Assembly: GCF_014466955.1 (NCBI RefSeq)
Contig: NZ_AP023396.1
Span: forward strand, 5,084,001-5,148,000
Direction of reading: 5' to 3'
Source of the DNA: Nocardia wallacei
Lineage (GTDB): Bacteria; Actinomycetota; Actinomycetes; Mycobacteriales; Mycobacteriaceae
DNA length: 64,000 nt
In this document: positions 9,719 through 43,944 of the stretch, piece after piece
Numbering within the stretch: the stretch's first letter is position 1
Layout of the letters: every line of letters begins with the position of its first letter
The notes under the pieces: generated by a model
Seen by the model: only the letters and a program-made list of their open reading frames with translations
Told to the model about the DNA's origin: nothing
Databases searched by the model: none
Position numbers and translations under genes: made by a program

Positions 9719-11161
9719 TCACACACGGTCCGCGCCCACCGGCCGCGCGTCGGTCATCGGCAGGGCCGCCAGCACCACCGGCACCATCGCCGCGGCGGCG
9801 AACCAGAACACCGCGTGCAGCCCGTCCAGCCAGCCCGTGGTGACAGTGGTGGTGATCGCCGCGAACGCCGCGATACCGAGGCCACCGCCCATCTGCCGGG
9901 CGGTCATGCTCATGCCGTACCCGGAGGCGAACTTCTCCTGCGGCACCGACGTCGCCGCCGCCGAGGACACCGCGGTCATCAGCAGCCCGATCGCCAGCCC
10001 GGACAGCAGCCCGACCGGCAGCCACACCGCCAGGAACCGCGTCTGCTCGTGCAGCAGCAGTGCGAACAGCACCCCGGAGACGCCGAACAGCACCGCACCG
10101 GCGATCGTCGCGAGCCGCTGGATGTCTGGATGCTTGGACTTGCCGACGACACCGGCGCCGATCGCGGCGGTGAACGCGCCCGGCGAATTCGCCAGTCCCG
10201 CTTCCCAGATCGAGTACTTCCAGACCACGATGGTGTACAGCGGGCAGGCCAGCAGCCAGGCGAACATCGCGATGCCGAACAGGAACGACACGGCGCTGGC
10301 GGCGGCGAATTTCCGGTCGGCCCACAGCTGCACCTCGAACACCGGCACCCGGTGCCGCATCGAGCGCAGGATCCCGGCGGCCAGCAGCACCAGTCCGCCC
10401 ACCGTCGCGGCGATGAAACCGGCACTGAGCCAACCCCATTCGCCACCCTGGGTGAGTCCGACCACGACCGTGCCGACACCGAGCGCGATCAGTATCGCGC
10501 CCAGCGGATCGGGCCGCTCCCGCACCTCGGGCTTGATCTCGGGCAGCCAGTTGCGGCCGATCACGAAGGCCACCAGGCCGACCGGGACGTTGATCAGGAA
10601 CACCGCGCGCCAGTCCCAGGCCCACACCAGCAGCCCGCCGAGCGCGGGACCGAAGGCGGCGGCCGCGGAGGAGGCCGCCGCCCAGGCCGCCACCGCCGCG
10701 ACCCGGCGCTCGGGCGGGTAGGCGCCCAGTACCAGGCCGAGGGCGGCGGGGATCATGCCACCGGCCGCGAGGCCCTGCAAAAACCTTGCGCCGATGAGGA
10801 ATTCGACGGTCGGCGCCGCGGTGCACAGCGCGGAGGCTATGGTGAACGCGAGCAGCGACCACAGGAAGACCGCCTTGCGGCCGAACACGTCGGCGTAGCG
10901 GCCCACGGGGGTGAGCACAGCCGCGAAGAACACGGCGTATCCCGACACCACCCACGACAGTGTCGGCAGCGCGGTGCCGGGGAAGCTCTCGAAGATGTCC
11001 GAGAACGCGACGTTCACCACGGACATGTCGAGGAAGGCCACGAAGGTGGCCACCGAGGTGATCAGCAGGACCCGCCGCGGCTCGATCGGCGCGCGGGCTC
11101 CTGCGGGGAGGGGGTATGCCGACGCCTGGGTCGAGACCTTGTCGGCGACGTCGTCAGTCAT
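9719..11161 (-). CDS. MFS drug exporter, EmrB/QacA (DHA2) type
   Basis: The 480-residue integral membrane protein is a proton-driven multidrug exporter. Family signatures seen are FLDMSVVNVAFSDI in the first helix (motif D1 of 14-helix exporters), GRYADVFGRKAVFLW (motif A), RFLQGLAAGGMIP (motif B) and ALGGLLVWAWDWRAVFLINVPVG (motif C region). A string of hydrophobic segments runs through the whole length. The ATG at 11161 follows GGCAGGTGG. It diverges from a TetR gene, and a long operator-like repeat overlaps its putative promoter, so it is probably repressed by that TetR protein. It could export the polyketide of the neighbouring cluster, but position is the only support. Confidence 0.9.
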   Translation of the reverse strand: MTDDVADKVSTQASAYPLPAGARAPIEPRRVLLITSVATFVAFLDMSVVNVAFSDIFESFPGTALPTLSWVVSGYAVFFAAVLTPVGRYADVFGRKAVFLWSLLAFTIASALCTAAPTVEFLIGARFLQGLAAGGMIPAALGLVLGAYPPERRVAAVAAWAAASSAAAAFGPALGGLLVWAWDWRAVFLINVPVGLVAFVIGRNWLPEIKPEVRERPDPLGAILIALGVGTVVVGLTQGGEWGWLSAGFIAATVGGLVLLAAGILRSMRHRVPVFEVQLWADRKFAAASAVSFLFGIAMFAWLLACPLYTIVVWKYSIWEAGLANSPGAFTAAIGAGVVGKSKHPDIQRLATIAGAVLFGVSGVLFALLLHEQTRFLAVWLPVGLLSGLAIGLLMTAVSSAAATSVPQEKFASGYGMSMTARQMGGGLGIAAFAAITTTVTTGWLDGLHAVFWFAAAAMVPVVLAALPMTDARPVGADRV

Positions 11162-11220
11162 CGTCCACCTGCCGGGGAATCACGAGAGGGCACATCGGGA
11201 AGACCTCACAGTCTGTTGAA

Positions 11221-11269
11221 CCGAACGTTCGTGCGGGATCATTAACGCACGATCGTTCGGTCAGGTCAA
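11221..11269 (-). promoter_or_regulatory. promoter and TetR operator of the MFS exporter
   Basis: On the minus strand a -35-like TTGACC (11269-11264) and a -10-like TTAATG (11245-11240) are 18 bases apart. The spacer and the sequence beyond the -10 contain two 15-base arms, CCGAACGTTCGTGCG (11221-11235) and CGCACGATCGTTCGG (11246-11260), which are reverse complements apart from one base. A dimer or pair of dimers bound here would block the promoter. Confidence 0.6.
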
Positions 11270-11330
11270 GACGGACTGCACGGCTCTTCCATCGAAATCC
11301 CACGAATTCTCGCCCGGACCGGCAAGTCTG

Positions 11331-11348
11331 GCCGAACGATCGTTCGGC
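11331..11348 (+). promoter_or_regulatory. TetR autoregulatory operator
   Basis: GCCGAACGATCGTTCGGC is a perfect 18-base palindrome directly followed by a -10-like TAAGAT (11349-11354). It shares the CGAACGATCG core with the operator of the divergent MFS gene (11221-11260), so one regulator probably binds both. The tetR start codon lies 50 bases further on. Confidence 0.6.
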
Positions 11349-11403
11349 TAAGATGGTTAGCGAGGGGTACCAGCCAGGGGTTGTGAAAAGGAGACACGGG
11401 TCG

Positions 11404-12066
11404 ATGACGGAGACTCGCCCGGCACGCGGCCACGACACCCGCCGTGCCATCCTGCGTGAAGCGGTCCAGGTCGGCGCGGTGGAGGGCCTGGACAGGCTCA
11501 CCATCGGCCGGCTCGCCACCGCCCTCGGCGCCAGCAAGAGCGGCGTGTTCGGGCTGTTCGGGTCCAAGGAGGAACTCCAGCTGGCCGCGATCGAGGAGGC
11601 CAAGTCGACCTTCATCGCGGAGGTGATCGGCCCGGCGCTGCGGCGGCCCTCGGGCATCGAGCGGCTGCGCACGCTGTGCGAGGCCTGGCTCGACCACACC
11701 AGCCGGGATGCCGCGGCCGACGGCGCCTGCTTCTTCCTGTCGGTCGGCTCCGAGTTCGGGTCGCGACCCGGGCGGGTGCGCGACGCCATCGTCTCGGTGT
11801 GGCAGCAGTGGCACGACTTTCACCGCCAGACCATCGTGGAGGCCCAGCAACTGGGCGAGATCACCGCCGCGACCGACCCGGCGCAGCTGGCCTTCGAGCT
11901 AGCGGCCATCGAGCGCAGCGCGGTGGCCGACTCGACGCTGCTCGACGACACGGCCGTGTTCGACCGGGCCCGCACCGCGATGCTGCGGCTGCTGCGCGAG
12001 CACGCCACCGACCCCGAACGGATCCCCGTGCCGCCGCACAGTCGTGCGGCCGACCGGCGAGCTTAG
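11404..12066 (+). CDS. TetR/AcrR-family transcriptional repressor
   Basis: The 220-residue product has an N-terminal TetR helix-turn-helix: TRRAILREAVQVGAVEGLD then LTIGRLATALGASKSGVFGLFGSKEELQ (residues about 10-58). The ligand-binding half contains the LCEAWLDHTS and GACFFLSVGSEFGSRPG blocks typical of the TetR_C YfiR-like subgroup. The ATG at 11404 is chosen because AAAAGGAG precedes it and it starts just before the DNA-binding domain. It is divergent from the MFS exporter with shared operators, so it is expected to repress both genes and release them on binding a ligand. Similar half-sites lie near 43030 and 43175. Confidence 0.9.
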   Translation: MTETRPARGHDTRRAILREAVQVGAVEGLDRLTIGRLATALGASKSGVFGLFGSKEELQLAAIEEAKSTFIAEVIGPALRRPSGIERLRTLCEAWLDHTSRDAAADGACFFLSVGSEFGSRPGRVRDAIVSVWQQWHDFHRQTIVEAQQLGEITAATDPAQLAFELAAIERSAVADSTLLDDTAVFDRARTAMLRLLREHATDPERIPVPPHSRAADRRA

Positions 12067-12116
12067 GGGACGCGTAGGGGTTACCGCTCCCGGGTGATTG
12101 GACAACAGTGGGCCTA
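12064..12116 (+). promoter_or_regulatory. promoter of the rightward polyketide operon
   Basis: TAGGGG (12064-12069) repeats after five bases as TAGGGGTTACCGC (12075-12087). Sixteen bases later comes CAACAGT (12103-12109), a candidate -10. The same element with the same spacing occurs upstream of the leftward PKS gene (40599-40651). The first TAGGGG includes the tetR stop codon. The predicted start of transcription falls at or next to the ATG at 12116, suggesting a leaderless mRNA. Confidence 0.6.
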
Positions 12117-12991
12117 TGCGCTCAGTGTCCGGCCCGGGTGCCCGCCATCGGCACCGCACGACCGTGCGGCAACGTCCGCGGGTCGGCCATATCGACTTCC
12201 TCAACTGGCTGCCCATCCTGTGGGGGCTGGCCCGCACCGGGAACCTGATCGAACTGGATCTGGTGCGCGGCACCCCCGACGACCTCAGCGACGCCCTCGC
12301 CGCCGGTTCGCTCGATCTGGGCCCCATCAGTCTGGTCGAATACCTTTCGCACACAGACGAATTGGAGCTGCTTCCGGATCTGGCCATCGGCTGTGACGGG
12401 CCGGTCATGTCGTGTCTCATCGTGAGCCGGGTGCCGCTGGACCGGCTCGACGGCGTCCCGGTGGCACTGAGTTCGACCAGCCGCACCTCGGTGCGGCTGG
12501 CCCGGCTGCTGCTCAGCGACTACGTCGGGGTGCGGCCGCGATTCTTCGTCAGCCCGCCCGATCCGGCGCTCATGTTCACCCAGGCCCCGGCCGCGGTGCT
12601 GATCGGCGACGTCGCGCTGCGCACGGCGCTGTTCGAGGCGCCCGAGCGGGGCCTGGTGGTGCACGACCTGGGCCGGATGTGGCGGGAGTGGACCGGGCTG
12701 CCGTTCGTCTTCGCCGTGCTCGGTGTACGACGCGAATTCGCTGTGCGCGAACCGGATTCCGTGCGCCGGGTGCACGCCGACCTGCTGGCGGCCCGCGATG
12801 TGGCGCTGGCGGAGATGGACGAGCTGTGCGAGCGGGCAGCGCGCTGGGAGGAATTCGACGCGGACACGCTGCGGCGCTACTACACCGGCGCGCTGGACTT
12901 CGACCTCGGGCCACGACATCTGGAGGGCATCGCCGAGTTCGCGCGGCGGACCGGGTTTCGCACCGATCTCACTGCCGCGCTACCGGCGTGA
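12116..12991 (+). CDS. MqnA-like chorismate dehydratase
   Basis: The 291-residue product belongs to the MqnA/MqnD family (PF02621) and matches MqnA in particular: RVGHIDFLNWLPI at the start of the fold, LVRGTPDDLSDALAAGSLDLGPISLVEYL, then GCDGPVMSCLIVSRVPL, and the C-terminal RRYYTGALDFDLG. MqnA removes water from chorismate to give 3-[(1-carboxyvinyl)oxy]benzoate, the first step of the futalosine route to menaquinone. No other mqn gene is present here, and the gene leads an operon with an acyl-CoA ligase-ACP and two PKS genes. I infer that it makes an aromatic starter acid. The start is uncertain: ATG 12116 lacks a ribosome site but fits a leaderless transcript; GTG 12164 and TTG 12098 are alternatives. 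Confidence 0.82.
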   Translation: MRSVSGPGARHRHRTTVRQRPRVGHIDFLNWLPILWGLARTGNLIELDLVRGTPDDLSDALAAGSLDLGPISLVEYLSHTDELELLPDLAIGCDGPVMSCLIVSRVPLDRLDGVPVALSSTSRTSVRLARLLLSDYVGVRPRFFVSPPDPALMFTQAPAAVLIGDVALRTALFEAPERGLVVHDLGRMWREWTGLPFVFAVLGVRREFAVREPDSVRRVHADLLAARDVALAEMDELCERAARWEEFDADTLRRYYTGALDFDLGPRHLEGIAEFARRTGFRTDLTAALPA

Positions 12992-13025
12992 CAGGCGGCG
13001 GTGCGCGATGACAGCGGGAGGTTCG

Positions 13026-15143
13026 ATGACGGCAACGGTGGATCTGAGCCCGGCGGCTCGGGTCGACGCCCTGGCCCGGCAGGCCGGGCGCCGGGTCGCG
13101 GTGGTGTACGAGGGCGGCACCTACAGCTACGACGTGCTCGCCGGGCAGTCCCGGCGGCTGGCCGCGGCGCTGGCCGACGGTGGCGCGGGCGAGGGCGACC
13201 GCGTGGTGTACCTGGGCGGCAACAGCGTCGCCTTCCTTGCGACCTTTCTCGCCACCGCACGGCTGGGATCGGTGTTCGTGCCGGTGAATTCGCGGCTGAC
13301 CGCTGCGGAGGTGGCGGTGATCCTCGCGGACTGCGCGCCGCACACCCTCGTGGTCGAACCCGGGCACCGGGAGATCGCCGAGGCGGCCGGAAGCGCCGCC
13401 CGGTTGCTGCTCGTGCCCGGCGACCCAGGACAGGATCCGGACGAAAAGCCCGGGGGCGCTTGGGAAGTACTGCCGCCGACCACCGGTGACACGGTCGCCG
13501 ACCCGGTTGCGTGCCCGGCCGATCGGCCCGCCATGCTCGCCTACACCTCGGGCACCACGGGCAGGCCCAAGGGTGTGCGGCTGACGCACGGGAATCTGTG
13601 GTGGAACGGCCTCAACCTGGACATGGTGGCGCCCGCGGCACCGCTGGACGTCACCCTGGTCGTGGCTCCCCTGTTCCACACCGCGCCACTGGGCTGTTTC
13701 ACCTTGCGCACCCTGCTGCGCGGCGGAACGGTGGTGCTGCGCCGCGACTTCCAGGCCCCGCGGATGCTGGCGGATCTGGTCGACTACCGGGTCACCACCG
13801 TCTTCGCGGTACCGGCCATGTTCGCTGCGGTCGCGGCCCTGCCCGGCTTCCCGGCGGCGGATCTGTCGGCGCTGCGCACCGCGGTCACCGCCGGTGCGCC
13901 CGCGCCCGCACCGCTGATCGGCCGCTACCTCGACCGCGGCATCGCGCTGCAGCAGGCGTACGGGCTCACCGAGACGCTGTTCGTCACCTGCCTGCCCGCC
14001 GACCGGACCGCCGAGCACGCCTCGTCGGCCGGACTCGCTCTGCCCTACACCGAGATTCGCATCATCGACCCGGCCGCCGGGACACCGGTCGCGCCGGGCG
14101 AGCCCGGTGAGGTGTGCCTGCGCGCGCCGACGGTGACCAGCGGGTATCGCAACGCCCCCGAGGCGACCGCGGCCGCGTTCGCCGACGGCTGGTTCCGCAC
14201 CGGCGATATCGGCTATCTGGACCGCGGCGGCTGTCTGTACCTGGTCGACCGGCGCAAGGACATGATCATCGTGGGCGGCGACAACGTGTACTCGGCCGAG
14301 GTCGAGCAGGTGCTGGCGCGCTGTCCCGGCGTGACCGATGTGGCGGTGGTCGGGATGCCCGATCCGCACGAGGGCGAGAGCGTGGTCGCGATCGTGAGCG
14401 GCCACGCCGACCTCCGTCCCACGCTGGCCGACCTGCGGCGCTTCGCCGAGCGCGAGCTGGCGGGCTACAAGCTGCCGACGCGAGTGGTGCATGCCGAGCA
14501 GATCCCGCGCAATGCGATGGGCAAGATCGACAAGGTCGTCATCCGGGCGGCGCTGGCCGACGCGGATCACGCCGTGTTCGCCGCAGAACCGGACGATCGG
14601 TCGCCAGACGAACAGCCCTCCACCGCAACACCTTCCACGACGCCGCCCGCGTGGTTGCGGGCGCTGCCGTCGCTGCCGCCCGACGAGCAATACCGCGTCG
14701 TGTTCGACGTCGTGGCGGCGAGCCTCGCCCGCACCATCCGCGGCGCGCCGCGGGTGCCGGCCGCCGAGGATCGGCTGCGCGACATCGGCCTGGGCTCGCT
14801 GGCGGCGGTGGAGCTGGCCCGTCACCTCGGCGCCACCTTCCACCTCGACCTGCCCACCACCACCCTGTTCGATCACGCCACGGTCGGTGGGCTGGTCCGG
14901 CAGCTGTGCGACCGGATCACCGCCGCCGGGGCGCGGCCGCCCGTGCTGAAGCTGATCGCGGAATTCGAACGCGCACTGCGCGATACCCCGTTCGAGCCGG
15001 CCGTGCGCGCCGAGCTGCGCGAGCGCCTGCGCGCCTCGCTCAACCAGCTCACCGGCGCGCCGGGCGCCGCCAACCCCGATGTCACCGGCGCCACCGACCG
15101 CGAGCTGTTCGCCCTGCTCGACGCCGAACTCGGAACACGCTGA
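13026..15143 (+). CDS. PKS loading protein: acyl-CoA ligase fused to an acyl carrier domain
   Basis: The 705-residue product is an ANL-family adenylating enzyme (residues 1-520) with the ATP motif [11 protein letters not shown] near 173-183, [13 protein letters not shown], and the catalytic Lys in NAMGKIDK (K500). A carrier domain follows, with the phosphopantetheine Ser in [12 protein letters not shown] (S591). The last 60 residues ([18 protein letters not shown], then [15 protein letters not shown]) look like a C-terminal PKS docking domain. This is the architecture of a loading module that activates a free carboxylic acid, as for aryl starters in ansamycin-type assembly lines. ATG 13026 is preferred over 13008 because GGGAGG lies just before it. 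It sits between the MqnA-like gene and PKS module 1. Confidence 0.88.
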
Positions 15144-15201: not shown

Positions 15202-20483
<5,282 letters not shown>

Positions 20484-20487
<4 letters not shown>

Positions 20488-23400
20488 CCAACCCGAACGC
20501 CGAATTGACCGAGGCCCTGCGCGCCGCCCTGGTGGAGCGGGATCGGTTGCGGCGGGAGAACTCCCGGCTCGCCGAGCGGCTCGACGAACCGATCGCGGTG
20601 ATCGGCATGAGCTGCCGCTTCCCCGGCGGCGTGCACGGCCCCGACCAGTGGTGGGAATTCCTGGCCGCCGGCGGCGACGGCATCACCGGCTTCCCCGAGG
20701 ATCGCGGCTGGCGCGACGACGACCGCGCCGAGCGCGGCGACTACCCGAGAGTGGGCGGATTCCTCGATACCGCTTTGGATTTCGACCCGGACATGTTCGG
20801 GATCTCGCCGCGGGAGGCGCTGGCCACCGATCCGCAGCAGCGGCTGCTGCTGGAGGCGTCGTGGGAGGCGATCGAACACGCGCGCCTCGATCCGCTCGCA
20901 CTGCGGGGGTCTCAGACGGCCGTGTTCGCGGGCGTGATGTATCACGACTACGCCGATCGGCTCGGCGCGGTGCCCGAACGCGTCGAGGGGCATCTGCGCA
21001 CCGGCAGCCTCGGCAGTGTGGTGTCCGGGCGGGTCGCCTTCGCGCTGGGACTGCACGGCCCTGCGGTCACCATCGACACCGCGTGTTCCTCGTCGCTGGT
21101 GGCGATGCACCTCGCCGGGCACGCGCTGCGGCAGCGCGAATGCTCGCTGGCCCTGGCCGGTGGTGTGACGGTGATGTCGACACCGAAGGTGTTCGCCGAG
21201 TTCGCCCGGCAGGGCGGGCTCGCCCCGGACGGGCGCTGCAAGGCCTTCGGCGCGGGAGCCGACGGCACCGGCTGGTCGGAGGGCGTCGGGGTGCTCGTGC
21301 TGGAGCGGCTGTCGGACGCGCGGCGGCTCGGACACCGGGTCCTCGCGGTGCTGCGCGGTTCGGCGGTCAACTCCGACGGCGCCTCGAACGGTCTCACCGC
21401 ACCCAACGGCCCCGCCCAGCAGCGAGTGATCCGGCAGGCGCTCGCGGCGGCGGCGCTGCGACCCGACGACATCGATATGGTGGAGGGCCACGGCACCGGC
21501 ACCCGCCTGGGTGACCCGGTCGAAATCCAAGCCCTCCTCGACACCTACGGCCCCGGCCGGACCAGGCCCCTGTGGCTCGGCTCGGCCAAATCGAACGTAG
21601 GCCACACCCAGGCCGCCGCCGGAATGGCCGGAGTGATCAAAGCCGTCATGGCCATGAGCCACGGCACCATACCCCCCACCCTGCACGCGAAAACCCCCTC
21701 CCCCCACGTGGATTGGACCGAGGCCCCGCTCCACCTACCCACCACACCCCAACCCTGGCCCACCACCGGCCACCCCCGCCGCGCAGCCGTCTCCTCCTTC
21801 GGCATCAGCGGCACCAACGCCCACATAATCCTCGAGCAGCCCCCAGCCCACCAGCCCGCCCCGACCGGGATCCAGCCACCCGCCACCCGCCGCACCGCGG
21901 CACGTCCGGGCACGACACAGCCACACACCACCGAACAGCGCCCGACACAGCCGATCACGGTCCGCACCGAACGGCCTGCGGCGGGGCCACACATCACCGA
22001 CCACGGCGCGACACGGCCGGGCATCACCGGCGAGACGGGGCCCGGGATGTCACCGCCGACCACCACACGAGGTGCGGTGGGGGCGATCACGCCGCGCGTT
22101 GCCGATCCAGGTGTGGCGCGGGCGGCCACGGTGGCGGACGGCGAAGGTGTCGGGGCGCAGGCGGGTCCGGTCGCGTGGCCGTTGTCGGGGCGGACCGAGG
22201 CGGGGTTGATCGGGCAGGCCGGTCGGTTGGCGGAGCACGTCGGGGGGCGGCCGGAGGTGGCGGCGGGCGATATCGGGTTCTCGCTGGCGACCACGCGGTC
22301 CCGGTTCGCGCGGCGGGCCGTGGTGCTGGGGCGGGACCGGGACGAGCTGATCGAGCGGCTGGGCGTGCTGGCCGCGGACGGGCGCTCGCCCGGGGTCGTG
22401 CGTGGGACGGCGCACCCGAAGGCCAAGACTGCCTTGCTGTTTCCCGGGCAAGGGTCGCAGCGGCCGGGTATGGGGCGTGAGCTGCACGCCCACTATCCGG
22501 TGTTCGCCGACGCCTTCGACGAGGTCGCCGGGCTGCTGGACCCGAAGCTGGAGCGTCCGGTGCGCGAGATCGCCTGGGCGCCCGCCGATCACCCCGACGC
22601 CGTCCTGCTGGATCGCACCGACTTCACTCAGGCCGCGCTGTTCACCGTCGAGGTCGCGCTCTACCGGCTGCTCGAATCCTGGGGCGTGGCACCGGATTTC
22701 CTGCTCGGCCATTCGATCGGCGAGGTGAGCGCGGCGTACCTGGCCGGGGTGTGGTCGCTGACCGACGCCGCGGCCCTGGTGGCCGCGCGCGGCCGGTTGA
22801 TGCAGCGGCTGCCGTCCGGCGGCGCGATGCTGGCGGTCACCGCCGACGAACGCACCGCCGACGAACTCGTCGCCCCGTACGAGGGCCGGGTCGCCATCGC
22901 CGCCGTGAACGGCCCGGCGGCGCTGGTGATTTCCGGCGACGAACCCGCGATCGACGAGATCGCGTCCGCCGCCGAGGCCCGCGGCCACACCGCGAAGCGG
23001 CTCCGGGTGAGCCACGCCTTCCACTCCCCCCGCATGCGCCCGATGCTCGAGGATTTCGCCGACGTCTGCGCGGCACTGACCTACCGGCCGCCGCGACTGC
23101 CGATCATCTCCGATCTCACCGGGCTACCGGCCGATCCCGCCGCCGTGCGCACGCCGGATTACTGGGTGCGGCACGTCGCCGAGCCGGTGCGTTTCGCCGA
23201 CGGCGTGCGCTGGCTCCGGGACACGGGCCGGGTCACCGTTTTCGCCGAGGTCGGCCCGGGTGCGGCACTGTCCTCACTGGTGGCGGGTGCCGACGACGAC
23301 GCGGTGGTGACGCCGCTGCTGCGCCCCGACCGGCCCGAGCCGGAGGCGATCACGACCGCGGTGGCGGAGGCCTATGTCGCGGGCGCCGCGGTGGACTGGG

Positions 23401-26400
23401 CGGCCCTCGTCCCCGGCGCGCGCGTCGTCGACCTGCCGACGTACGCGTTCGCGCACCAACGTTTCTGGCTCGAGCACACTCCGCGCGCCGATGTCCGCGC
23501 CGCCGGGTTGACCGCCGCGGACCATCCACTGCTCGCGGCGGTCGTGGCGGCGCCCGACGGCGCGGCGACCGTCCTCACCGGCACGCTGTCCGTCCGGGAC
23601 CAGCCGTGGCTGGCCGATCACCGGATCGGCGGCCAGGTGCTGGCCCCGGCAACGCTGTTCGTGGAGCTGGCATTGCGCGCTGCCGACGAGGTGGGCTCGC
23701 ACGGTATCGCGGACCTGACGGTCGTGACGCCGCTCGTGCTCGCCGAGGAACCCGTGCGGGTCCAGGTGCGAGTGGAACCGCCGGGGGCCGAGGGCCGCCG
23801 CGCGTTCACAGTCCACGCCCGCGACGACAACGGACCGTGGACCACCCACGCCGAGGGCACGCTCGCCGAGGAGTCCTCGCGCGAGACGGCGCCGCGCCGC
23901 GTGGCGCAGGCCGCGGCGTGGCCACCGCCGGGAGCCGTCGCGCTCGCCCCCGAGGAGCTGTACCGGCGACTCGCGGACGCCGGACTGCGGTACGGCCCTG
24001 CCTTCCAGGGCATGCGGGAAGTGTGGCGCGACGGCTCGGATCTCTGTGCGCGCGTGGCGCTTTCCGAGAACATCGACACCGGTCGATTCGGACTGCACCC
24101 GGCCCTGCTCGACGCGGCTCTGCACGCGCTCGTGGCACTCGCCGACGCCGCCGTACCGGCTACCGGGCCACGGGACGGGCTCGGCGGCGACGCTCGGGTC
24201 CGCCTGCCGTTCTCCTGGCGCGGCATCGAACTCCCCGCCCGGGGCGCGACGGAACTCCGCGTCCGACTCTGCACCCCGGCACCGGACCGGATCACGCTCT
24301 CGGCCACCGACCCCGCGGGCGCACCCGTCATCACCGTCGACTCACTCGAACTACGCCAGGCCCCAGCCGTTTCCGTCACTCCAGCCGGTCCGCCGCTCTA
24401 CGCGGTCCACTGGGGCCCGGCCTCCGAACCGAGCGGAGATCCGCTCCCGGTCGAGGTCCGCCTCGCCGGCACCGACCGTCCCCCTGCCTCTTCCGCGGCG
24501 GACGGGAACTCCGCTCGCGCGCAGCCCGGCGTGATCGTCCTACCGGCCGATGCCGACTCCGCCGAGCCGGTAGCCGCTACGGTCCGAAACCACGTGGCGC
24601 ACACGCTCGCCCGGATGCAACGGCTGCTCGTGGACGAACCGGACACCACGCTGGTCGTCCTCACCCACGGCGCCGTCGCCACGGACCCGGCTCGCGAACG
24701 ACCCGATCTCGCGGGTGCCGCGGTATGGGGCCTGGTACGCAGCGCCCAGGCCGAGTACCCGGACCGGATCGTGCTACTGGACGCCGACGGCGCGGCACCC
24801 GCCGTGCTCGGCACCACGCAGCTCACCCCGCTGATCGCCCGCGTCCTGGCCACCGGGGAACCGCAACTCGCAGTGCGCGACGGCGGACTCCTCGTCCCAC
24901 GCCTGTCCCGCCTCGCCGCGCCCGCCGGCCCGGACCTGCTGCGCGGTGACCCGTGGCGGCTGGTCGTCACCGAGCCGGGCACGCTCGACACGGTGACCCT
25001 GCGACCAGCGGCGGAAACACCGAAACCCCTGGCACCGCACCAGGTTCGGGTCGCCATGCGCGCCGCCGGAGTGAATTTCCGGGACATCCTGATCGGGCTG
25101 GGCATGTACCCGGACCCGAACGCCGTGCTGGGCGGCGAGGGCGCGGGTACGGTGCTCGAAGTCGGTTCCCGGGTCACCGCGTTCGCGCCCGGAGACCGGG
25201 TGATGGGCCTGTTCGACGGCATCGGATCGACGGTCACCACCGATCACCGCCTGGTGGCCCGCATCCCCGACGGCTGGACCTACGCGCAGGCCGCCGCGGT
25301 CCCGGTCGTATTCCTCACCGCCTACTACGCGCTGGCCGATCTGGCCGGGCTCCGCGCCGGGGAATCGGTGCTGGTGCACGCGGCCGCCGGCGGCGTCGGC
25401 ACCGCCGCGACCCAACTGGCAAGGCATTGGGGCGCGGAGGTTTTCGCCACGGCGAGTCCCGGCAAGTGGCAGGTGCTGCGAGAGCGCGGTCTCGACGCGG
25501 ACCATCTCGCCAACTCCCGCACCCTCGAGTTCGAACAACACTTCCGCACCGTCACCGACGGCCGCGGCATGGACGTCGTCCTCGACTCGCTGGCCGGGGA
25601 TTTCGTCGACGCGTCGCTGCGATTGCTACCCCGCGGCGGGCGGTTCGTGGAGATGGGCGTCACCGACGTGCGCGACCCGGAGACCGTCGCCGAACGCCAC
25701 CCCGGTGTCAGCTACCACTCGTTCCTGATCAGCGAGGTCGATCCCGACCGCATCCGGGCCATGCTCACCGACCTCGTAACACTGTTCGACAGGCGCGTGC
25801 TGACCCCGCCACCGATCACCGGCTGGGACGTGCGCGACGCGGTGACCGCACTGCGCCACGTCGGCCAGGCACGGCACATCGGCAAGGTGGTTCTCACCTG
25901 CCCGCGCCCGCTGGACCCGGCGGGCACGGTGCTCATCACCGGCGGCACCGGCATGATCGGCGCGGCGGTGGCCCGCCACCTCGTGTCCCACTACGGCATC
26001 CGCCGCCTGCTCCTGACCAGCCGCGCGGGCGAAAACGCCCCCGGCGCCATGGAATTGGCGAAAGAACTGACCGCAGGCGACGCCCACGTGGAGATCGTGG
26101 CCTGCGATGTGACCGACCGCGCGGCCGTCGCACAGCTGCTGCGCCGGTTTCGCGCACCGCACCCGCTCACCGCCGTCGTGCATGCCGCGGGCACCGTCGA
26201 CGACGCCCTGTTCGCCGGTCAATCCCCCGAGAAGCTGGCGCGAGTGCTGCGCCCGAAGGTCGACGCCGCCTGGCACCTGCACGAACTCACCCGCGCGCAG
26301 GATCTCGCGGCCTTCGTCGTGTTCTCCTCCGCGGCAGGCGTTCTCGGCACCCCGGGGCAAGCCAATTACGCGGCCGCCAACGGATTCCTCGACGCGCTGG

Positions 26401-27200
26401 CCTCCGTACGGCAGCACGACGGGCTGCCGGGCAGCTCGCTGGCGTGGGGGCTGTGGGCCGAGCAGAGCGCGGTGAGCGCACATCTCGGCGCCCGCGACCG
26501 CGCCCGCATGGAGCGCGGCGGCTTCCGCACCCTCACCACCGCCCAGGCATTGGGGTTGTTCGACGCCGCGATGCGCAGCAGCCTGCCGGTCACCGTCCCG
26601 ATCCGCCTGGACACCGCCGCCGTCACCGATCCACCGCCGCTGCTGCGCGGGCTCGTGCGCCGCCGCCGCGCCGCCGCCACGGCCGCGCCCGAACCCGCCG
26701 ACTTCGCCGCCCGCCTCGCCGGGCACACCGTCGAGGAGCAGCACCGCCTGCTGCTGGAGTTGCTGGCGCGGCATGTGGCCGCGGTTCTGGATCACGACCC
26801 CGGCCGGGCGTTCGACGGTCATCGTCGTTTCGCCGATCTCGGCTTCGACTCACTCACCACCGTGGAGCTGCGCAATCAGCTGCGCCGGTCGACCGGTGTG
26901 ACGATCTCTCCCACCGCGATTTTCGACTATCCGACCCCGGCCGCGTTGGCCGAGCACCTACGCGGCCGCATGGATCCGCCCACGGCGGCCGCGGGCAATC
27001 TCGTCGCCGATCTGGAACGCGACCTGGACCGGGTGGCCGAATCCGACATTCCCCGCGCCGATCTGGAACGGCTCGCCGCCAAGCTGGCCGCGGCACTGCA
27101 CCGCCACCAGCCCGACGCGACCGTCGACCTCATCGAAATAGCCGGGGACGACGAGATATTCGACCTCATCGACCGTCGCTCGGACGGACTGCGCACATGA
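20484..27200 (+). CDS. type I polyketide synthase module 2 (KS-AT-DH-ER-KR-ACP)
   Basis: The 2238-residue protein holds one fully reducing module. A short N-terminal docking helix ([20 protein letters not shown]) is of a different class from those of modules 1 and 3. KS has Cys201; AT has Ser744 in GHSIGE and HAFH, so malonyl is predicted; DH has His1046 ([10 protein letters not shown]) and Asp1210; ER has the NADPH site HAAAGGVG near 1636; KR has [10 protein letters not shown] near 1819 with a VDD motif; ACP has Ser2123. The protein ends in a class 1-type docking domain ([11 protein letters not shown]). The KS-AT linker (about residues 455-560) is unusually long and rich in Thr, Pro and Arg. 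Start and stop overlap both neighbours by ATGA, so translation is coupled. Confidence 0.95.
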
Positions 27201-27238: not shown

Positions 27239-28501
27239 ATGACGAGCACGGACCGGTACGACGTGGTGGTGGCGGGGGGCGGCTCGGCGGGCGTGGCGGC
27301 CGCCGTCGGCGCCGCCCGCACCGGGGCGCGGACCCTGCTGATCGAGCGCGGCCCGTGCCTGGGCGGCGCCGCGACGCTCCGCAACGTACTGACCTACTGC
27401 GGGATCTACACCCGCGCCGACCCACCGCGCCAGGTGGTGTTCGGCGTCGCCGAGGAGGTGCTGCGCGGGCTGCGCCGCCTCGGCGCGGTCTCCGCACCGA
27501 CCCGATTCACCTCTGTCGCCGTGGTATTCGACCCCGAGTCGGTGAAACTCGTCCTCGACCGGATCTGCCACGACGCCGGAGTAGACGTCCGGCTCGACAG
27601 CCAGCTCGTCGGCGCCGACCGCCACGGTGAGGTGATCGGCGCGGTCCACCTCGCCGATCATCAAGGCCTGCACACGATCCGGGCCGCCGCGTACGTCGAC
27701 GCCACCGGCGAGGCGGACCTGGCGAACTTCGGCGGCGCCGCGGTCCGGTACGGCAACGGCGGTCTGGTCCAGAACGGCACGCTGGGTGTGCGGTTCGGCG
27801 GCATTCCGCGCGCGGCCGAGGTCACCCGCGAAACGCTCGCCACCGCCGTCGCCGCCGCCAAACTGCGTGGCGCACACGTGCTGGCCGAGCGCGGACTGGT
27901 TGCGCGCCTGCCGATCTCGGGCGACATCGTCACCTATGTGGTGGACGAGGGCTACGACGCCCGCGATGCGCGCGAGCTCACCCGCGCCCAGACACACGCT
28001 CGCGCCCAGGCCCAGGAGTACCTCGCCGTGCTGCGCACCCTCCCCGGTTGCGCGGACGCGCACATCGTCACGACCGGCCCGGAGATCGGCACCCGCGAAT
28101 CACGCCATCTGCTCGGGCACTACCGGCTCAGCACCGACGAGGTGCTCGGGGCCGCCCGCCACGAGGAGGTGGTCGCGATGGGCGCCTGGCCGATCGAGTA
28201 CCACCCCGGCCCGGGCGTAGTTCCGCAGTGGCAGTTCATCTCCGGCGACGCCCATTACGACATTCCCTTCGGCGTGGTCCGCAGCATCGACACCGCGAAC
28301 CTCTTCGCCGCCGGGCGCACGGTCGACGCCGACCGCTACGCCGGCGCCTCCCTGCGTGTCATGGGCACCGCCTTCGCCACGGGCCACGCGGCGGGGATCG
28401 GCGCGGCCCTGCACGCGGCCGGGGCGGGGACGAGCGCGGCGCTCGTGCAACGCGAACTGCTCTGCCAAGGGGCGTATCTGGAGATTCCGCGCGCCGCCTG
28501 A
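27239..28501 (+). CDS. FAD-dependent oxidoreductase (PF12831 type)
   Basis: The 420-residue product has an N-terminal dinucleotide fold (YDVVVAGGGSAGVAAAVGAA, residues 7-26) followed by GPCLGGAATLRNVLTYCGIY, the DATGEADLANFGG segment, and a C-terminal FAD site LFAAGRTVDADRYAGASLRVMG. This matches the FAD_oxidored family, whose members oxidise varied substrates; the substrate here cannot be read from sequence. It is last in the rightward polyketide operon and probably tailors the chain. An in-frame ATG at 27197 overlaps the PKS stop (ATGA); I prefer 27239 because the family start lies there, but coupled initiation at 27197 is possible. Its stop is only ten bases from the stop of the convergent arm. 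Confidence 0.8.
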   Translation: MTSTDRYDVVVAGGGSAGVAAAVGAARTGARTLLIERGPCLGGAATLRNVLTYCGIYTRADPPRQVVFGVAEEVLRGLRRLGAVSAPTRFTSVAVVFDPESVKLVLDRICHDAGVDVRLDSQLVGADRHGEVIGAVHLADHQGLHTIRAAAYVDATGEADLANFGGAAVRYGNGGLVQNGTLGVRFGGIPRAAEVTRETLATAVAAAKLRGAHVLAERGLVARLPISGDIVTYVVDEGYDARDARELTRAQTHARAQAQEYLAVLRTLPGCADAHIVTTGPEIGTRESRHLLGHYRLSTDEVLGAARHEEVVAMGAWPIEYHPGPGVVPQWQFISGDAHYDIPFGVVRSIDTANLFAAGRTVDADRYAGASLRVMGTAFATGHAAGIGAALHAAGAGTSAALVQRELLCQGAYLEIPRAA

Positions 28502-28641: not shown

Positions 28642-29982
28642 TCACACCGCCACCCGGACCGCGGCGGTCTCGCCGCCCGCGCCGAAGACCAACCCGTTCT
28701 TCCAGGCATTGCGTTCGAACATCCGGAACAGCGGGCCCGCGACGAACGTCGTCACGATGGTCATGATCGCCAGGATGGTGAACAGCGTCGGGGTGATGAG
28801 TCCCTGGGTGAGGCCGATGTTGATGAGCACCAGCTCCATCAGTCCGCGCGCGTTGGCCAGCGCGCCCATCGCACCCGCCTCCCGCCAGCTCAGTCCCTGC
28901 CACCGCGAGGCCAGCGACACCGCGCCGAACTTCCCCGCGAACGACACCACCAGCACCGCCGCGGCCGCCACGATCGCCACCGGATGCAGCAGCAGGCTCA
29001 ACTTGGTATTGAGCCCGGCGTACACGAAGAACGCGGGCAGCAGCAGATACGCCACCAGCGGCTCGGTCCGCTCCCGCACCCGGTCCAGCCACTGCCCGCG
29101 CGGCATCACCACCCCGGCGAGGAACGCCCCGAACACCGAGTAGATGCCCGTCCAGTCGGTGAACCAGGCGCACACGAGCACGACCAGCAGCACCACCGTG
29201 AACGGCCCGAGCGGCAGCCCGCCCGCGGGATCGGCGCGCATCTCCTGCTCGGCCCAGCCGTTCAGCACCCGCAGCAGCCGCCGCCCGACGGTCAGCATGA
29301 ACAACACGAACGCTCCGCCACCGACGAAGGCCAGCACGGCACTGTTCATATTGCCCTGGGCACTGGCGACCACGACCGCCAGCAGGATCCACGACCAGGC
29401 GTCGTCGAACGCCGCGCACGCCAGCGTCATGGTGCCGACCCGCGTGTCGTGCAGCCCGGAGTCGTGAATGATCCACGCCAGCACCGGAAACGCGGTGATA
29501 CCCACGGCCGCCGCGAGGAACAGTGCGGCCTGCCACGCCGCCACCTTCCCCGTGAAGAAGTCGCCGTGCTGGAACAGCACGTACCCGGTGACGGCGCCGA
29601 ACAGCAGCGGCACCGTGAGCCCGGCCGTCGCGGTGGCGCCCGCCACCCGGAAGTGGTCGGTGAGAATCCCGGTCCGGAACGACGACCCGACCGAGAACAT
29701 GTAGAGCACCAGACCCAGTTGCCCCACCACGTAGATCATCGTCAGCGACGGATGCGGAATCGTCTGCCCGCCGACCGCGAGGGTCGCGGGGAACAGCCAC
29801 CGCTGCCCGCTGGGCCAGATCGCGCCCAGCACCGAGGGCCCGAGCAGGAATCCGGCGGCCATGATGGCGACCACCTGCATCTGCCCGAGCCGTCTCAGCA
29901 CCGGCCACAGCAGCCGGTAGGCCGCGAGGATCACCGCCATCTGCAGAAAGAAGTGCAGCGTCAGCTCGAGAAACGACGGCAT
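28642..29982 (-). CDS. CPA2-family cation/proton antiporter
   Basis: The 446-residue protein is largely hydrophobic with about 12 helices and matches the Na+/H+ exchanger family of CPA2 (KefB/NapA-like) transporters. The double Asp of the ion site is visible in AAFDDAWSWILLA (near residue 195), with GAFLAGVVMPRG, FFVYAGLN and the C-terminal GALANARGLMELVL characteristic of the family. No regulatory TrkA domain is attached. Antiporters of this class occur in several polyether and other polyketide clusters, where they are thought to help export or self-protection. It follows the halogenase gene after 60 bases on the same strand. Confidence 0.88.
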   Translation of the reverse strand: MPSFLELTLHFFLQMAVILAAYRLLWPVLRRLGQMQVVAIMAAGFLLGPSVLGAIWPSGQRWLFPATLAVGGQTIPHPSLTMIYVVGQLGLVLYMFSVGSSFRTGILTDHFRVAGATATAGLTVPLLFGAVTGYVLFQHGDFFTGKVAAWQAALFLAAAVGITAFPVLAWIIHDSGLHDTRVGTMTLACAAFDDAWSWILLAVVVASAQGNMNSAVLAFVGGGAFVLFMLTVGRRLLRVLNGWAEQEMRADPAGGLPLGPFTVVLLVVLVCAWFTDWTGIYSVFGAFLAGVVMPRGQWLDRVRERTEPLVAYLLLPAFFVYAGLNTKLSLLLHPVAIVAAAAVLVVSFAGKFGAVSLASRWQGLSWREAGAMGALANARGLMELVLINIGLTQGLITPTLFTILAIMTIVTTFVAGPLFRMFERNAWKNGLVFGAGGETAAVRVAV

Positions 29983-30042: not shown

Positions 30043-31341
30043 TCAGGCCGGGACCACGGTCCTGGAGTCCGCGGTGCGCGGATAGATCGGGCAATCGGGG
30101 TACAGGTCGAACGGCGCGAACAGCGACCAGTCCGGCTCCGCCCGCAGCCGGTTCACCAGCGGGCTCTCCTGGGTCCAGAAGTCGCCACTGACCAGCCGCA
30201 CATGCCATTTCGGGTCCAGGTCGGCGGCCATGTCCAGGATGACCTGCCCCATGACCGGCTGCCGGTTGTCGTAGACGGCGCAGATCAGGCGGTAGTAGGT
30301 GCCGTAGGCGGTCTTGAAGAACGATTCGTAGCTCGTGGTGGCGTCGTCGTCGGAGACGTTGCCCGCCAACCGATCCGCCGCCAGCTCGCCCGCCTTGCGG
30401 CCGGTCGCCAGGGCCAGCAGCACGCCGCCGGAGAACACCGGGTCGGTGAAGCTGCCCGCGTCGCCGACCAGGAAATAGCCGGGGCCGCAGAGTCTTTCGG
30501 AGTGGTACTCGAAGTTCCGTTCGCCCTTGAGTTCCCGCAGCACGGTCGCGCCGCGCAGCCGCTGCTGGATCCGCGGCACGCGAGCCAGATGCTCGTCGAA
30601 CACCGCCTCGGGCCGGTCGGACTGCAGGATGGACATGGGCGCGACGGCGCCGACGCTGATGGCGTCGGCGCGCAACGGGATCGCCCACATCCAGCCGTCC
30701 TGGTGGATGCCCAGCTGGGTGTCGCCCTCCACGCCGGGGTTCTGGCTCTCGTCGAGATTGCCGTAGTGCTTGAACACCGCGGCCATCTTCAACCGGCTGT
30801 CGTGCACCCGCAGCCCGAGCTTCTTGGCGATCACCCCGGCCCGGCCCGACGCGTCGGCGAGGTAAGGCGCTGTGGCGTGGTGGGTTTCGCCGTCGTAGGT
30901 GTAGGTGACGCCGGTGACCCGGCCGTCGGCGGCCACGTCCACGTCGATGACGGCCGCCTCCTCGAGCACGGTGACGCCGGCCTTGGCGGTCTCGTCGAGC
31001 AGCGTCTTGTCGAACTCGGCGCGCTCGACCTGGATGGCCCAGGTGCGGCGGCCGTCCCCGATCTCGCCGAAGTCGATGCGGCGGGCGTTACCGGCGATCC
31101 CGGTCAGCTCCACCCCGGGTTTGAACGCGTACGGCTTGGCCATGACGGCGTCCAGCAGCCCGAGCTGGTCCAGGATCTCCACGGTGTAGGGCAGGAACGA
31201 CTCGCCGATGTGGAAGCGCGGGAACCGCACCTTCTCCAGCAGCAGCACCCGGTACCCGCGCCGCAGCATGGTCAGCGCGTACGCGCAACCGGCGGGACCG
31301 CCGCCGATGACAATCGTGTCGTAGGTCGTGGTTTCGGCCAT
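30043..31341 (-). CDS. flavin-dependent halogenase
   Basis: The 432-residue protein is in the flavin-dependent halogenase / geranylgeranyl-reductase-like superfamily. The FAD motif is IGGGPAGCA (residues 12-20). The halogenase signature WxWxIP is present as WMWAIP (217-222), and FTDPVFSGG matches the second family motif near the flavin. HIGESFLP is followed by a candidate catalytic Lys in YAFKPG (K74), where halogenases carry the residue that carries or activates hypohalous acid. The type resembles phenol or carrier-bound pyrrole halogenases rather than tryptophan enzymes. It requires reduced FAD from a partner reductase, which is not in this window. ATG 31341 follows GGAG and is preferred to an in-frame GTG six bases earlier. 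Confidence 0.82.
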   Translation of the reverse strand: MAETTTYDTIVIGGGPAGCAYALTMLRRGYRVLLLEKVRFPRFHIGESFLPYTVEILDQLGLLDAVMAKPYAFKPGVELTGIAGNARRIDFGEIGDGRRTWAIQVERAEFDKTLLDETAKAGVTVLEEAAVIDVDVAADGRVTGVTYTYDGETHHATAPYLADASGRAGVIAKKLGLRVHDSRLKMAAVFKHYGNLDESQNPGVEGDTQLGIHQDGWMWAIPLRADAISVGAVAPMSILQSDRPEAVFDEHLARVPRIQQRLRGATVLRELKGERNFEYHSERLCGPGYFLVGDAGSFTDPVFSGGVLLALATGRKAGELAADRLAGNVSDDDATTSYESFFKTAYGTYYRLICAVYDNRQPVMGQVILDMAADLDPKWHVRLVSGDFWTQESPLVNRLRAEPDWSLFAPFDLYPDCPIYPRTADSRTVVPA

Positions 31342-31359
31342 GATCACTCCATTTTCGTT

Positions 31360-33087
31360 TCAGCGGAACGTGATTCGGTTCATTGCTGCGCTCAGTTCGG
31401 CGCCGGGGTCGGTGCTCGCGCCGGGGCTGCGCCACGCCACGTGCTGGTCCGGGCGCACGAGCAGCGCGCCATCGGCCTTGATCTCCCGCACCCGCGCCCA
31501 GTTTTCGGAATCCGGTTGCGCCACCCGCAACGGCAGACCCGCCCGCTCCCGCACCGCACGCGCCGCCGCGGCCCATGCCCCTCCGGCGGGACCGGCCACG
31601 AGCGTGAACTCCCCCGCGCACACCAGGTCCAGGGTGGAGCGGCGCGCCCCGTCGTGCTCGACCCAGGCGTGCGGCAGCCGACGTCCCGGCCGCGTGGACG
31701 GAACGTGCTTGTCCCCCATGGGTTCCGGCTCCGGCGCGACCGTGCCGTCGGGCACCAGCGCACCGTCCTCGTAGGCGGCGCCGATCTCGATGTCGATAGC
31801 CTGGCAATCGATCCGATGGGTGCGCAGCACCTCCGCGGCGCGGGCGCGGGCGGTGCGGCCGCGCGCGGAGTCCTCGAAGTAGGTGTTGAAGAACGTCGGC
31901 CGCATCCACTGCGGCACATGGGGTCCCAGGCCCAGCGCGGCCTCGCTCATCAGTTCCGAGTTGGCGATGATGCCCACCGCCCAGTCCAGGTTGCGGCGGC
32001 CGATCGGGCGGCGCTCGGTGTCGTAGGTGTCCAGCAGGCCCGGACCGGCGTGCCCGCGCCGCACCGCGGCGATCTTCCAGGCCAGGTTGTGCGCGTCCTG
32101 GATGGCGGTGTTGAGGCCGAGCCCGGCCGCCGGCGGCAGCTTGTGCGCGGCGTCACCGGCCAGGAAGACCCGGCCGTGCCGGTAACGCTGGGCGTTGACG
32201 GCGTCGACCGTCCAGTTGCTGACCTTGTGCAGCCGCACCCGCAGATCCGGGATGCCGAGGGTGTCGCGGATGCGCGCCAGCACCGCGTCGCGCTGCGAGC
32301 GCGCCGGATCGTCGGGTCCGGTGGTGAAGTGCAGCCCCCACTCCTCGCTGAATCTGCCCCAGGTGGGCCCCATTTCGACGAGCGTGGCCCCGGACAACTC
32401 CGGACGCTTGGGGTTGACGAAGTAGGTCAGCAGCGCGCCGTCGCGCTGCCAGCGGGACAGGTCGGCGGTGAAGTGCACGGTGGTGACGTGATGGAACCGC
32501 GGCCAGCCGTCGAACCGCACACCCAGCGACGGACCCAGCGTCCGGCCGCCGTCACCGGCGATCAGGTACTCGGCGGTGACGGTGTGCCGCGCGCCGTCCG
32601 CGTCGCGCACGGTCGCGACGATCCGGTCGTCGCGCTCGGCCCACTCCACCAGTTCGCAGCCGTACCGGACGCGCCCGGGCGCGCGCTGCTCGGCCGCTGT
32701 GCGCAGCAACGGTTCCGAACGGATCTGCGGCACGTTGGTCGCGGCCACCGGGCTCGCCGCCGACCAGCTCTCCCGCAGTTCCCCGCCGCCGAAGGCGTCC
32801 ATCTCGTAGATCACCCGGCCGTCGAAGGGCCCCTTCCCTGCCAGCGTGGTCTGCCAGCACACCGCGCCGAACTTCTCCAGCGGCGCGCCGACCGTCTCGA
32901 GTTCCTCGGCCAGGCCGTACTGCCGGAAGATCTCCATGGTCCGGTGATTGAGGTAGTGCGCCTTGGGCAGACGCGCCGTGTCCGGGCGCTGCTCCACCAG
33001 CAGATGGTCGATGCCCAACTCGGACAGGAAGATCGACGCCGTCAGACCGCAGCCGCCGGCGCCCACGATCAGCACGGTGGTGTCCAT
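31360..33087 (-). CDS. class A flavin monooxygenase (phenol hydroxylase / TfdB-like)
   Basis: The 575-residue protein is a single-component NAD(P)H-dependent aromatic hydroxylase of the PheA/TfdB type. It shows the FAD-binding VGAGGCGLTASI (residues 8-19), the DG-type motif AGDGGRT, and the second FAD motif FLAGDAAHKLPPAAGLGLNTA. The C-terminal 150 residues match the thioredoxin-like domain of phenol hydroxylases. Enzymes of this family hydroxylate phenols or other electron-rich aromatic rings, and some polyketides. In this operon with a halogenase and an aryl-starter PKS, ring hydroxylation is the natural inference. ATG 33087 follows GGGGAC; an in-frame start at 33114 would overlap the upstream gene. 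Confidence 0.88.
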   Translation of the reverse strand: MDTTVLIVGAGGCGLTASIFLSELGIDHLLVEQRPDTARLPKAHYLNHRTMEIFRQYGLAEELETVGAPLEKFGAVCWQTTLAGKGPFDGRVIYEMDAFGGGELRESWSAASPVAATNVPQIRSEPLLRTAAEQRAPGRVRYGCELVEWAERDDRIVATVRDADGARHTVTAEYLIAGDGGRTLGPSLGVRFDGWPRFHHVTTVHFTADLSRWQRDGALLTYFVNPKRPELSGATLVEMGPTWGRFSEEWGLHFTTGPDDPARSQRDAVLARIRDTLGIPDLRVRLHKVSNWTVDAVNAQRYRHGRVFLAGDAAHKLPPAAGLGLNTAIQDAHNLAWKIAAVRRGHAGPGLLDTYDTERRPIGRRNLDWAVGIIANSELMSEAALGLGPHVPQWMRPTFFNTYFEDSARGRTARARAAEVLRTHRIDCQAIDIEIGAAYEDGALVPDGTVAPEPEPMGDKHVPSTRPGRRLPHAWVEHDGARRSTLDLVCAGEFTLVAGPAGGAWAAAARAVRERAGLPLRVAQPDSENWARVREIKADGALLVRPDQHVAWRSPGASTDPGAELSAAMNRITFR

Positions 33088-33100
33088 GTCCCCGCCGCGG

Positions 33101-43221: not shown

Positions 43222-43944
43222 ATGACGGAGGCAAGCGGGTCCACCACCGCGGCCGCGGACCGCGACCTCGGCGCGGCCCCGGAGCAGGCTTACACCGAGG
43301 CCACCGACCCCGACTGCATTTCGGACGAGGTGGCCGTCGATCTGCTCCGCGCCGCACCGTGGCGCCGCATCGCACTCGTCGGCGACAGCACCGCGCACGG
43401 CGCGGGCGACCCCAGCCCCGGCTACCGCGAAATGTACTGGGCCCCAAGGGTGATCCAGGTCCTGCGCGCGGCCGTGGGCGAAGTCGAGTTCCTCAACACC
43501 GGTCGCATCAACGCCACCACCCGCCAGGTGCTCGACGAGCAACTGGAAACAGCCCTGGCCTTCGATCCGGACCTGCTCTACGTCGCCTGCGGCGGCAACG
43601 ACCTGTGGACCGACACCCCCGACTACGACGCCGCCGAAGCGAACCTGGACCGAATCTTCGCCGCCGGCAAAGCAATCGGCGCCCGCCTCGCCACCATGAC
43701 CATCGCCGACGCCGTCCCCGAGCACATCCCCCAGCTCCGCCCGTTCCACGAACGCCTCGACCTGCTCAACCAGGTGATCCGCCGCGTAGCCACCCGCCAC
43801 GACGCCATTCTGATCGACCTGTGGTGGCACCCGGTCGGCCACCGCCCCACCGTCATGTCCGCCGACAACATCCACTTCAACATCTCGGGCCACGCCGTCG
43901 TAGCCGCCGAGGTAATCAAGGCCCTCGCAGCCGCCACCCCCTGA
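43222..43944 (+). CDS. cytoplasmic SGNH/GDSL hydrolase
   Basis: The 240-residue product has no signal peptide. The SGNH blocks are LVGDSTAHGAG (nucleophile Ser), LNTGRINATT, CGGNDLW (third block Asn) and the dyad ADNIHFNISGH. The class covers acyl-ester hydrolases and arylesterases; the substrate cannot be told. AAGGAGAAG precedes the ATG. It diverges from the SDR gene across a 245-base region that contains the operator-like sites described separately. Confidence 0.88.
   Translation: MTEASGSTTAAADRDLGAAPEQAYTEATDPDCISDEVAVDLLRAAPWRRIALVGDSTAHGAGDPSPGYREMYWAPRVIQVLRAAVGEVEFLNTGRINATTRQVLDEQLETALAFDPDLLYVACGGNDLWTDTPDYDAAEANLDRIFAAGKAIGARLATMTIADAVPEHIPQLRPFHERLDLLNQVIRRVATRHDAILIDLWWHPVGHRPTVMSADNIHFNISGHAVVAAEVIKALAAATP

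Follow-up and report, generated by a model that had tools for sequence, protein, structure and literature searches.

An orphan MqnA-type gene linked to a ligase-carrier protein fusion and polyketide synthases in Nocardia encodes a candidate supplier of an aryl starter unit

The stretch of Nocardia wallacei DNA analysed here (the window, 64,000 nucleotides in its entirety) carries an orphan gene of the MqnA family, for which chorismate would be the substrate expected from family membership, next to a gene encoding an AMP-forming acid ligase fused to an acyl carrier protein (CoL-ACP) and to polyketide synthase (PKS) genes, and this linkage is real. We consider it likely, from sequence and gene neighbourhood, that the gene encodes a catalytically competent MqnA-type dehydratase that no longer serves menaquinone synthesis and works for a single polyketide pathway.

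The mqnA-type gene heads an operon whose second gene, as the preliminary description had proposed, encodes a ligase with a carrier domain: CoL-ACP starts 16 bases downstream on the same strand, and its PF00501, PF13193 and PF00550 domains were matched on a longer ORF. Its C-terminal stretch, judged by eye, presumably resembles a docking helix. The KS, AT, DH, KR and ACP motifs are present in PKS1, PKS2 and PKS3, and the AT domains of all three contain HAFH, which we take to indicate malonyl specificity, while the docking ends gave no fixed order of the three proteins. The halogenase carries WxWxIP, which we take to be the motif of such enzymes, and the nearest PDB entries to the phenol hydroxylase are 2,4-dichlorophenol 6-monooxygenase and 2-hydroxybiphenyl 3-monooxygenase. 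The family-less protein matched no Pfam or NCBIfam entry and gave an unusable structure model (pLDDT 38); the protein search listed six rows for it, including one with an identical sequence. The true start of the TetR-family ORF probably lies further in. In the subset of window ORFs that was scanned, we found no thioesterase domain, no chorismate pyruvate lyase and no chorismatase (Hyg5/FkbO). Both GDSL hydrolases lie at the PKS3 end and are conserved across clusters; because no thioesterase domain was found, they are candidates for chain release, the one beside PKS3 being a possible chain-release or maturation enzyme.

Table 1. Features of the mqnA-CoL-ACP-PKS region in window coordinates.
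Feature	Coordinates	Strand	Evidence
LuxR-type regulator, 736 aa	7149..9359	-	PF00196 at C-terminus; orthologue beside cluster in related loci
DHA2-type MFS exporter	9719..11161	-	TIGR00711 over cut-off; orthologues 74-96% in related clusters
TetR-family regulator (ORF)	11116..12066	+	PF00440, PF16925; ScbR-like match below cut-off
MqnA-type chorismate dehydratase (predicted), orphan	12116..12991	+	PF02621, fold, N30/S99/Y255, W31 for near-invariant Cys
CoL-ACP (AMP-forming acid ligase + acyl carrier protein fusion)	13008..15143	+	PF00501, PF13193, PF00550, adenylation motifs
PKS1: KS-AT-DH-KR-ACP	15202..20487	+	domains; motifs present
PKS2: KS-AT-DH-ER-KR-ACP	20484..27200	+	4-base overlap with PKS1; motifs present
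FAD-dependent oxidoreductase (flavoprotein), conserved core	27239..28501	+	PF12831
CPA2-type cation/proton antiporter	28642..29982	-	PF00999
FADH2-dependent halogenase, CmlS type	30043..31347	-	PF04820; PDB 3i3l, 8zop, 3e1t; WxWxIP
FAD phenol hydroxylase	31360..33114	-	PF01494 + PF21274
Family-less protein, signal-peptide-like N-terminus (by eye), conserved in these clusters	33101..33964	-	
PKS3: KS-AT-DH-ER-KR-ACP, N-terminal docking domain PF08990	33978..40532	-	motifs present
GDSL lipase/acylhydrolase, signal-peptide-like N-terminus (by eye), beside PKS3	40753..42093	+	PF13472; 6 other Nocardia clusters
Short-chain dehydrogenase, possible cluster edge	42155..42976	-	PF00106; same place in 4 other clusters
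Second GDSL hydrolase, possible cluster edge	43222..43944	+	PF13472; 6 other clusters

The window protein had been described as matching MqnA along its length, which we confirmed: it adopts the PF02621 fold, shows 56-58% identity to S. coelicolor MqnA (SCO4506; PDB 7ahr, 2nxo), and is nearer MqnA than MqnD in both sequence and fold ranking, which ruled out identity as MqnD. A chance ORF was likewise ruled out by conservation of the gene across 12 Nocardia genomes. In the printed alignments, three S. coelicolor MqnA structures carry changed residues, Asn to Ser in 7an7, Ser to Ala in 7an8 and Tyr to Phe in 7an9, and the entries 7an6 and 7ywc score lower across query residues 1-60 and thus differ from wild type in that N-terminal stretch. 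N30, S99 and Y255 of the window protein align with the positions changed in 7an7, 7an8 and 7an9. These Asn, Ser and Tyr positions, which we take to be catalytic and which a 2022 paper reportedly identified as such, are kept in 10 of 10 aligned orphan-cluster proteins and, wherever a comparator has a residue at the position, in the comparators too (39/39, 40/40 and 40/40, respectively), and 45 of the 52 positions invariant among the 40 comparators are also kept throughout the 10 orphans. The same conservation, together with frames free of stops in 12 genomes and a place before CoL-ACP kept in 11 of 12, argues against a non-catalytic relic or binding protein lying in the operon by chance, a reading to which we give almost no weight, although the PF02621 fold is shared with periplasmic binding proteins and degraded copies occur in two other Nocardia.

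The preliminary description had counted altered active-site residues, combined with a lack of activity on chorismate, as evidence against a chorismate-converting enzyme; the Asn, Ser and Tyr are intact, but the Cys adjacent to the Asn has become Trp. Position 31, which directly follows the Asn, holds Trp in 8 of 10 orphans as opposed to Cys in 39/39 comparator residues, position 119 is Ser or Thr in 8 of 10 as opposed to Gly in 39/40 comparators, and all 10 orphans carry Ile for Val at position 91 and Ala for Ser at position 226. With W31 beside the Asn and Ser or Thr at 119, it is possible that the chemistry is altered, so that substrate or product could differ. Chorismate might then be bound and 3-hydroxybenzoate or another aryl acid be made directly, in a chorismatase-like manner, by way of W31 and position 119, which would suit the free phenol suggested by the phenol hydroxylase and the PDB entry 6o9a, titled as MqnA complexed with 3-hydroxybenzoic acid. 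However, the orphans of three genomes with the same cluster type (G038, G046 and G515) retain Cys31 and Gly119, so the changes at 31 and 119 are dispensable for the pathway; this and the intact Asn, Ser and Tyr positions make such direct formation unlikely in our view.

Is the gene truly an orphan? In the source genome (7.89 Mb, 100% complete), profile searches found a single PF02621 gene, no second one that could be MqnD, and no MqnC over the cut-off, the best match scoring 324 bits against a cut-off of 428 in an 888-residue frame. PF02621 is also single in seven of seven further named Nocardia genomes carrying the gene, and with one PF02621 gene each, none of the eight genomes (source genome included) contains MqnD. 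MqnC over the cut-off was found in none of seven named Nocardia genomes carrying the gene and in none of 12 distinct Nocardia genomes tested, a set assembled from six and seven genomes with N. aurea in both (as G057 and G104), which includes two genomes with only broken copies and leaves out G512 and G515, where no mqnC was found in the examined stretches of 56 and 36 kb, respectively. The best matches below the cut-off (319-326 bits) fall in frames of 867-1234 aa, presumably as expected for the F420 protein FbiC; an extra weak match to the MqnC model (~171 bits) occurs in two of the seven further Nocardia genomes and is absent from the source genome. Both non-Nocardia comparators have MqnC over the cut-off. 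Conversely, MenB and MenD are over their cut-offs in the source genome, about 3 kb apart, and in 6/6 Nocardia tested versus 0/2 comparators, and the Men route would thus supply the menaquinone of the cell.

These genome-wide searches extend what had been stated from the window, that mqnC and mqnD are missing and that nocardiae use the Men route, and a complete mqn pathway elsewhere in the genome, named beforehand as contrary evidence, was not found, mqnC and a second PF02621 gene both being missing. A role in menaquinone or naphthoquinone synthesis was ruled out on the lack of MqnC over the cut-off and of a second PF02621 gene. Relatives at 63-69% identity do lie beside mqnE and/or mqnC in Streptomyces, Streptantibioticus and Dactylosporangium, and one protein of the same sub-lineage (L046, S. 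olivoreticuli) is accompanied by mqnE and mqnC, which would suit a gene feeding a futalosine-type naphthoquinone, as in PM100117/118, or menaquinone, with the other mqn enzymes encoded elsewhere. However, the absence of MqnC over the cut-off from all 12 distinct Nocardia genomes, the single PF02621 gene in eight of eight and the MenB and MenD of six of six render this very improbable.

Across the genus, 14 of 150 Nocardia genomes match the gene, 12 near full length and two with partial or broken copies. A CoL-ACP orthologue and PKS genes accompany the near-full-length gene in 12 of 12, a conserved link that strengthens the polyketide starter role first suggested from the window. The two genes are adjacent in 11 of these; in N. 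aurea they lie ~54 kb apart on the same contig (mqnA at 736.8 kb, CoL-ACP at 680.2-682.4 kb). The N. aurea cluster (G104; L089-L091, L066) is split, with CoL-ACP and PKS1 standing together at that distance from mqnA. The PF12831 flavoprotein is found in 11 of the 12 loci, and the contig of the twelfth, N. transvalensis, breaks off within PKS1. Nine loci contain both the phenol hydroxylase and the family-less protein; for the other three, the N. wallacei and N. transvalensis contigs end first and the G515 stretch reaches the contig end. A halogenase gene occurs in five of the 12 loci and was not found in the stretches examined of N. salmonicida, N. aurea, G038 and G046. Because in G038 and G046 (L060/L062) the ligase-ACP is fused to a KS, as the domains of P0157, a protein of the G038 type, illustrate, and a single additional PKS was found within the stretches examined, the pathway occurs in several sizes, and the single further module hints at iterative extension.

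Two other genomes, G045 and G053 (L064, L065), hold MqnA-like remnants, one opening after the N-terminal part and one frame-broken, and no PKS matching the cluster was found in the 19 kb examined of each. To look for versions of the cluster that lack mqnA, 397 genomes of the order were searched with the family-less protein; only the source genome and G408 matched, the latter at 39-41% identity and with no PKS neighbours in the 36 kb examined. The order-wide ligase search of 397 genomes returned the source genome only, a weak negative in that the best two candidates per genome were scored.

Beyond the named Nocardia genomes, at least six further MqnA/CoL-ACP pairs, one of them from Pseudonocardiaceae, seem to sit on shared contigs, since their longest contigs among the matches listed are equal in size (one such length being 60,512 bases, from a Pseudonocardiaceae bacterium, and another 302,048 bases); the pairing covered 52 of 120 listed MqnA rows and 35 of 120 listed CoL rows. 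In P0087 (403 residues, on a contig of 8,929 bases), an MqnA domain is fused to an acyl/peptidyl carrier domain, which may be a genuine fusion or an artefact of gene calling, and the protein groups with four of the apparently CoL-paired MqnA proteins with support of 100/98. A thioesterase domain forms part of the polypeptide in the CoL-ACP relative P0161 (972 aa).

Two trees, of 53 and 58 rows, the larger omitting 20 rows without examined context as well as L018 and L058, both place the window protein together with the remaining Nocardia orphans. The CoL-linked trait, assigned to 18 rows, needs three changes on the tree, and 17 of the 18 fall in one group of moderate support (85/90), which also takes in L046 and leaves out P0022. 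One row, P0007, was labelled CoL-linked without its neighbourhood being inspected, its longest contig equalling that of P0126, a homologue of the family-less protein of the cluster, and the label mqnC_linked includes some rows whose examined DNA showed no mqnC. The I91/A226 signature is shared by four of six proteins apparently paired with CoL-ACP elsewhere and by L046, which has no PKS genes matching the cluster in the 20 kb examined. It is plausible, with a branch order that is not firm, that the orphans were recruited from MqnA copies already serving special metabolism.

In the pathway we propose, the dehydratase would convert chorismate into 3-[(1-carboxyvinyl)oxy]benzoate (3-enolpyruvylbenzoate), as its fold, identity and conserved residues suggest. 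CoL-ACP would adenylate the benzoate carboxylate of this compound, or of 3-hydroxybenzoate after loss of pyruvate, and, to judge from its domains and gene linkage, would tether the activated aryl acid to its own carrier domain. PKS1, PKS2 and PKS3 would then add malonyl units to the aryl chain in a largely reducing manner, in keeping with the module content in Table 1, and the phenol hydroxylase, the core flavoprotein and, in some species, the halogenase may tailor the ring or the chain. The product would probably be a meta-hydroxyaryl polyketide or a short phenolic lipid, possibly chlorinated in the source strain.

Which acid enters the assembly line bears on this scheme at two points. The presence of a phenol hydroxylase and a halogenase points to a phenol that is free at some point in the pathway, which would favour removal of the enolpyruvyl group either ahead of chain extension or afterwards; no enolpyruvyl-removing enzyme is evident. 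Against loading of 3-enolpyruvylbenzoate itself, the aryl ether would bring a second carboxylate into the ligase. We hold only tentatively, and as rather doubtful, that CoL-ACP loads intact 3-enolpyruvylbenzoate, the vinyl or carboxylate being acted on by the core flavoprotein or retained in the product; such a starter may occur in 12 of 150 Nocardia genomes and, it appears, in one or more Pseudonocardiaceae, the dehydratase-carrier fusion being its most compact form. In the open-licence PMC literature we found no description of an aryl enolpyruvyl ether as a starter unit and, in titles and abstract starts, none of a lone MqnA as a starter enzyme.

An aryl starter of either kind has to be weighed against the family of the ligase, whose matches are mainly fatty-acyl and general CoA ligases. 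NCBIfam matches CoL-ACP best to long-chain and general acyl ligases, with every match shown lying below the cut-off, many of its relatives bear the name fatty-acyl-CoA synthase or acyl-CoA synthetase, and of its two tied closest PDB chains, one (8weu) is a fatty-acyl-CoA synthase and the other (8wev), the hint of aryl specificity, is a feruloyl-CoA synthetase. CoL-ACP could thus load some other acid, for example a fatty acid, with the MqnA product serving as a tailoring group or a free metabolite. However, CoL-ACP lies directly behind MqnA at the head of the run in 11 of 12 genomes, and the pair seems to recur outside Nocardia; with the feruloyl-CoA synthetase match, these observations make loading of another acid distinctly improbable to us, and priming by an MqnA-derived aryl acid is the reading we retain.

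If true, chorismate could yield aromatic starters by a further route, in addition to those through pyruvate lyases and chorismatases, and the first enzyme of the futalosine pathway would prove recruitable by itself, without the rest of the vitamin K2 pathway; an orphan mqnA beside a ligase-ACP gene would then be a hook for genome mining. It would also caution against taking an mqnA gene alone as evidence of futalosine menaquinone synthesis.

Compared with the futalosine-pathway MqnA of S. coelicolor (SCO4506; 7ahr, 2nxo), the window protein has the fold, the 56-58% identity and the Asn, Ser and Tyr positions in common. By contrast, its gene lies in a PKS operon, it has W31 for Cys, and its genome encodes MenB and MenD and contains neither mqnC over the cut-off nor a second PF02621 gene. 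In mycobacterial phenolic glycolipid priming, Rv2949c presumably acts on chorismate as a pyruvate lyase, and FadD22, we assume, carries an ACP. This priming by Rv2949c, FadD22 and Pks15/1 has been described as a hydroxybenzoate supply, an aryl-AMP ligase and a malonyl-extending PKS (PMC7205293). The window cluster resembles it in arrangement, with the succession of aryl-acid supplier, ligase and PKS, whereas the mycobacterial route uses the para isomer and a pyruvate lyase and the window cluster would use the meta isomer by way of a dehydratase.

Closest among the precedents found is gonM1 of S. caniferus, an mqnA homologue from the PM100117/118 PKS cluster, where it is accompanied by mqnC, mqnE and mqnD homologues proposed to build a naphthoquinone (PMC4763440). 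In both cases an mqnA homologue appears dedicated to a PKS-derived natural product, but the window gene stands alone beside a ligase-ACP gene. The earlier claim that supply by an MqnA-type dehydratase would be new is thereby narrowed: an mqnA homologue had already been placed in a PKS cluster, but with mqnC, mqnE and mqnD, and for a naphthoquinone rather than a starter. In Hyg5-type, chorismatase-fed lines (nat-hyg5, unantimycins), 3-hydroxybenzoate from chorismate serves as the starter, and the nat-hyg5 PKS cluster has a CoL loading domain (PMC7170507). There the chorismatase yields 3-hydroxybenzoate directly, whereas the window cluster has an MqnA-type dehydratase instead. Taking these comparisons together, the proposed arrangement resembles both phenolic glycolipid priming and a chorismatase-fed PKS, with an MqnA-type enzyme substituted at the chorismate step.
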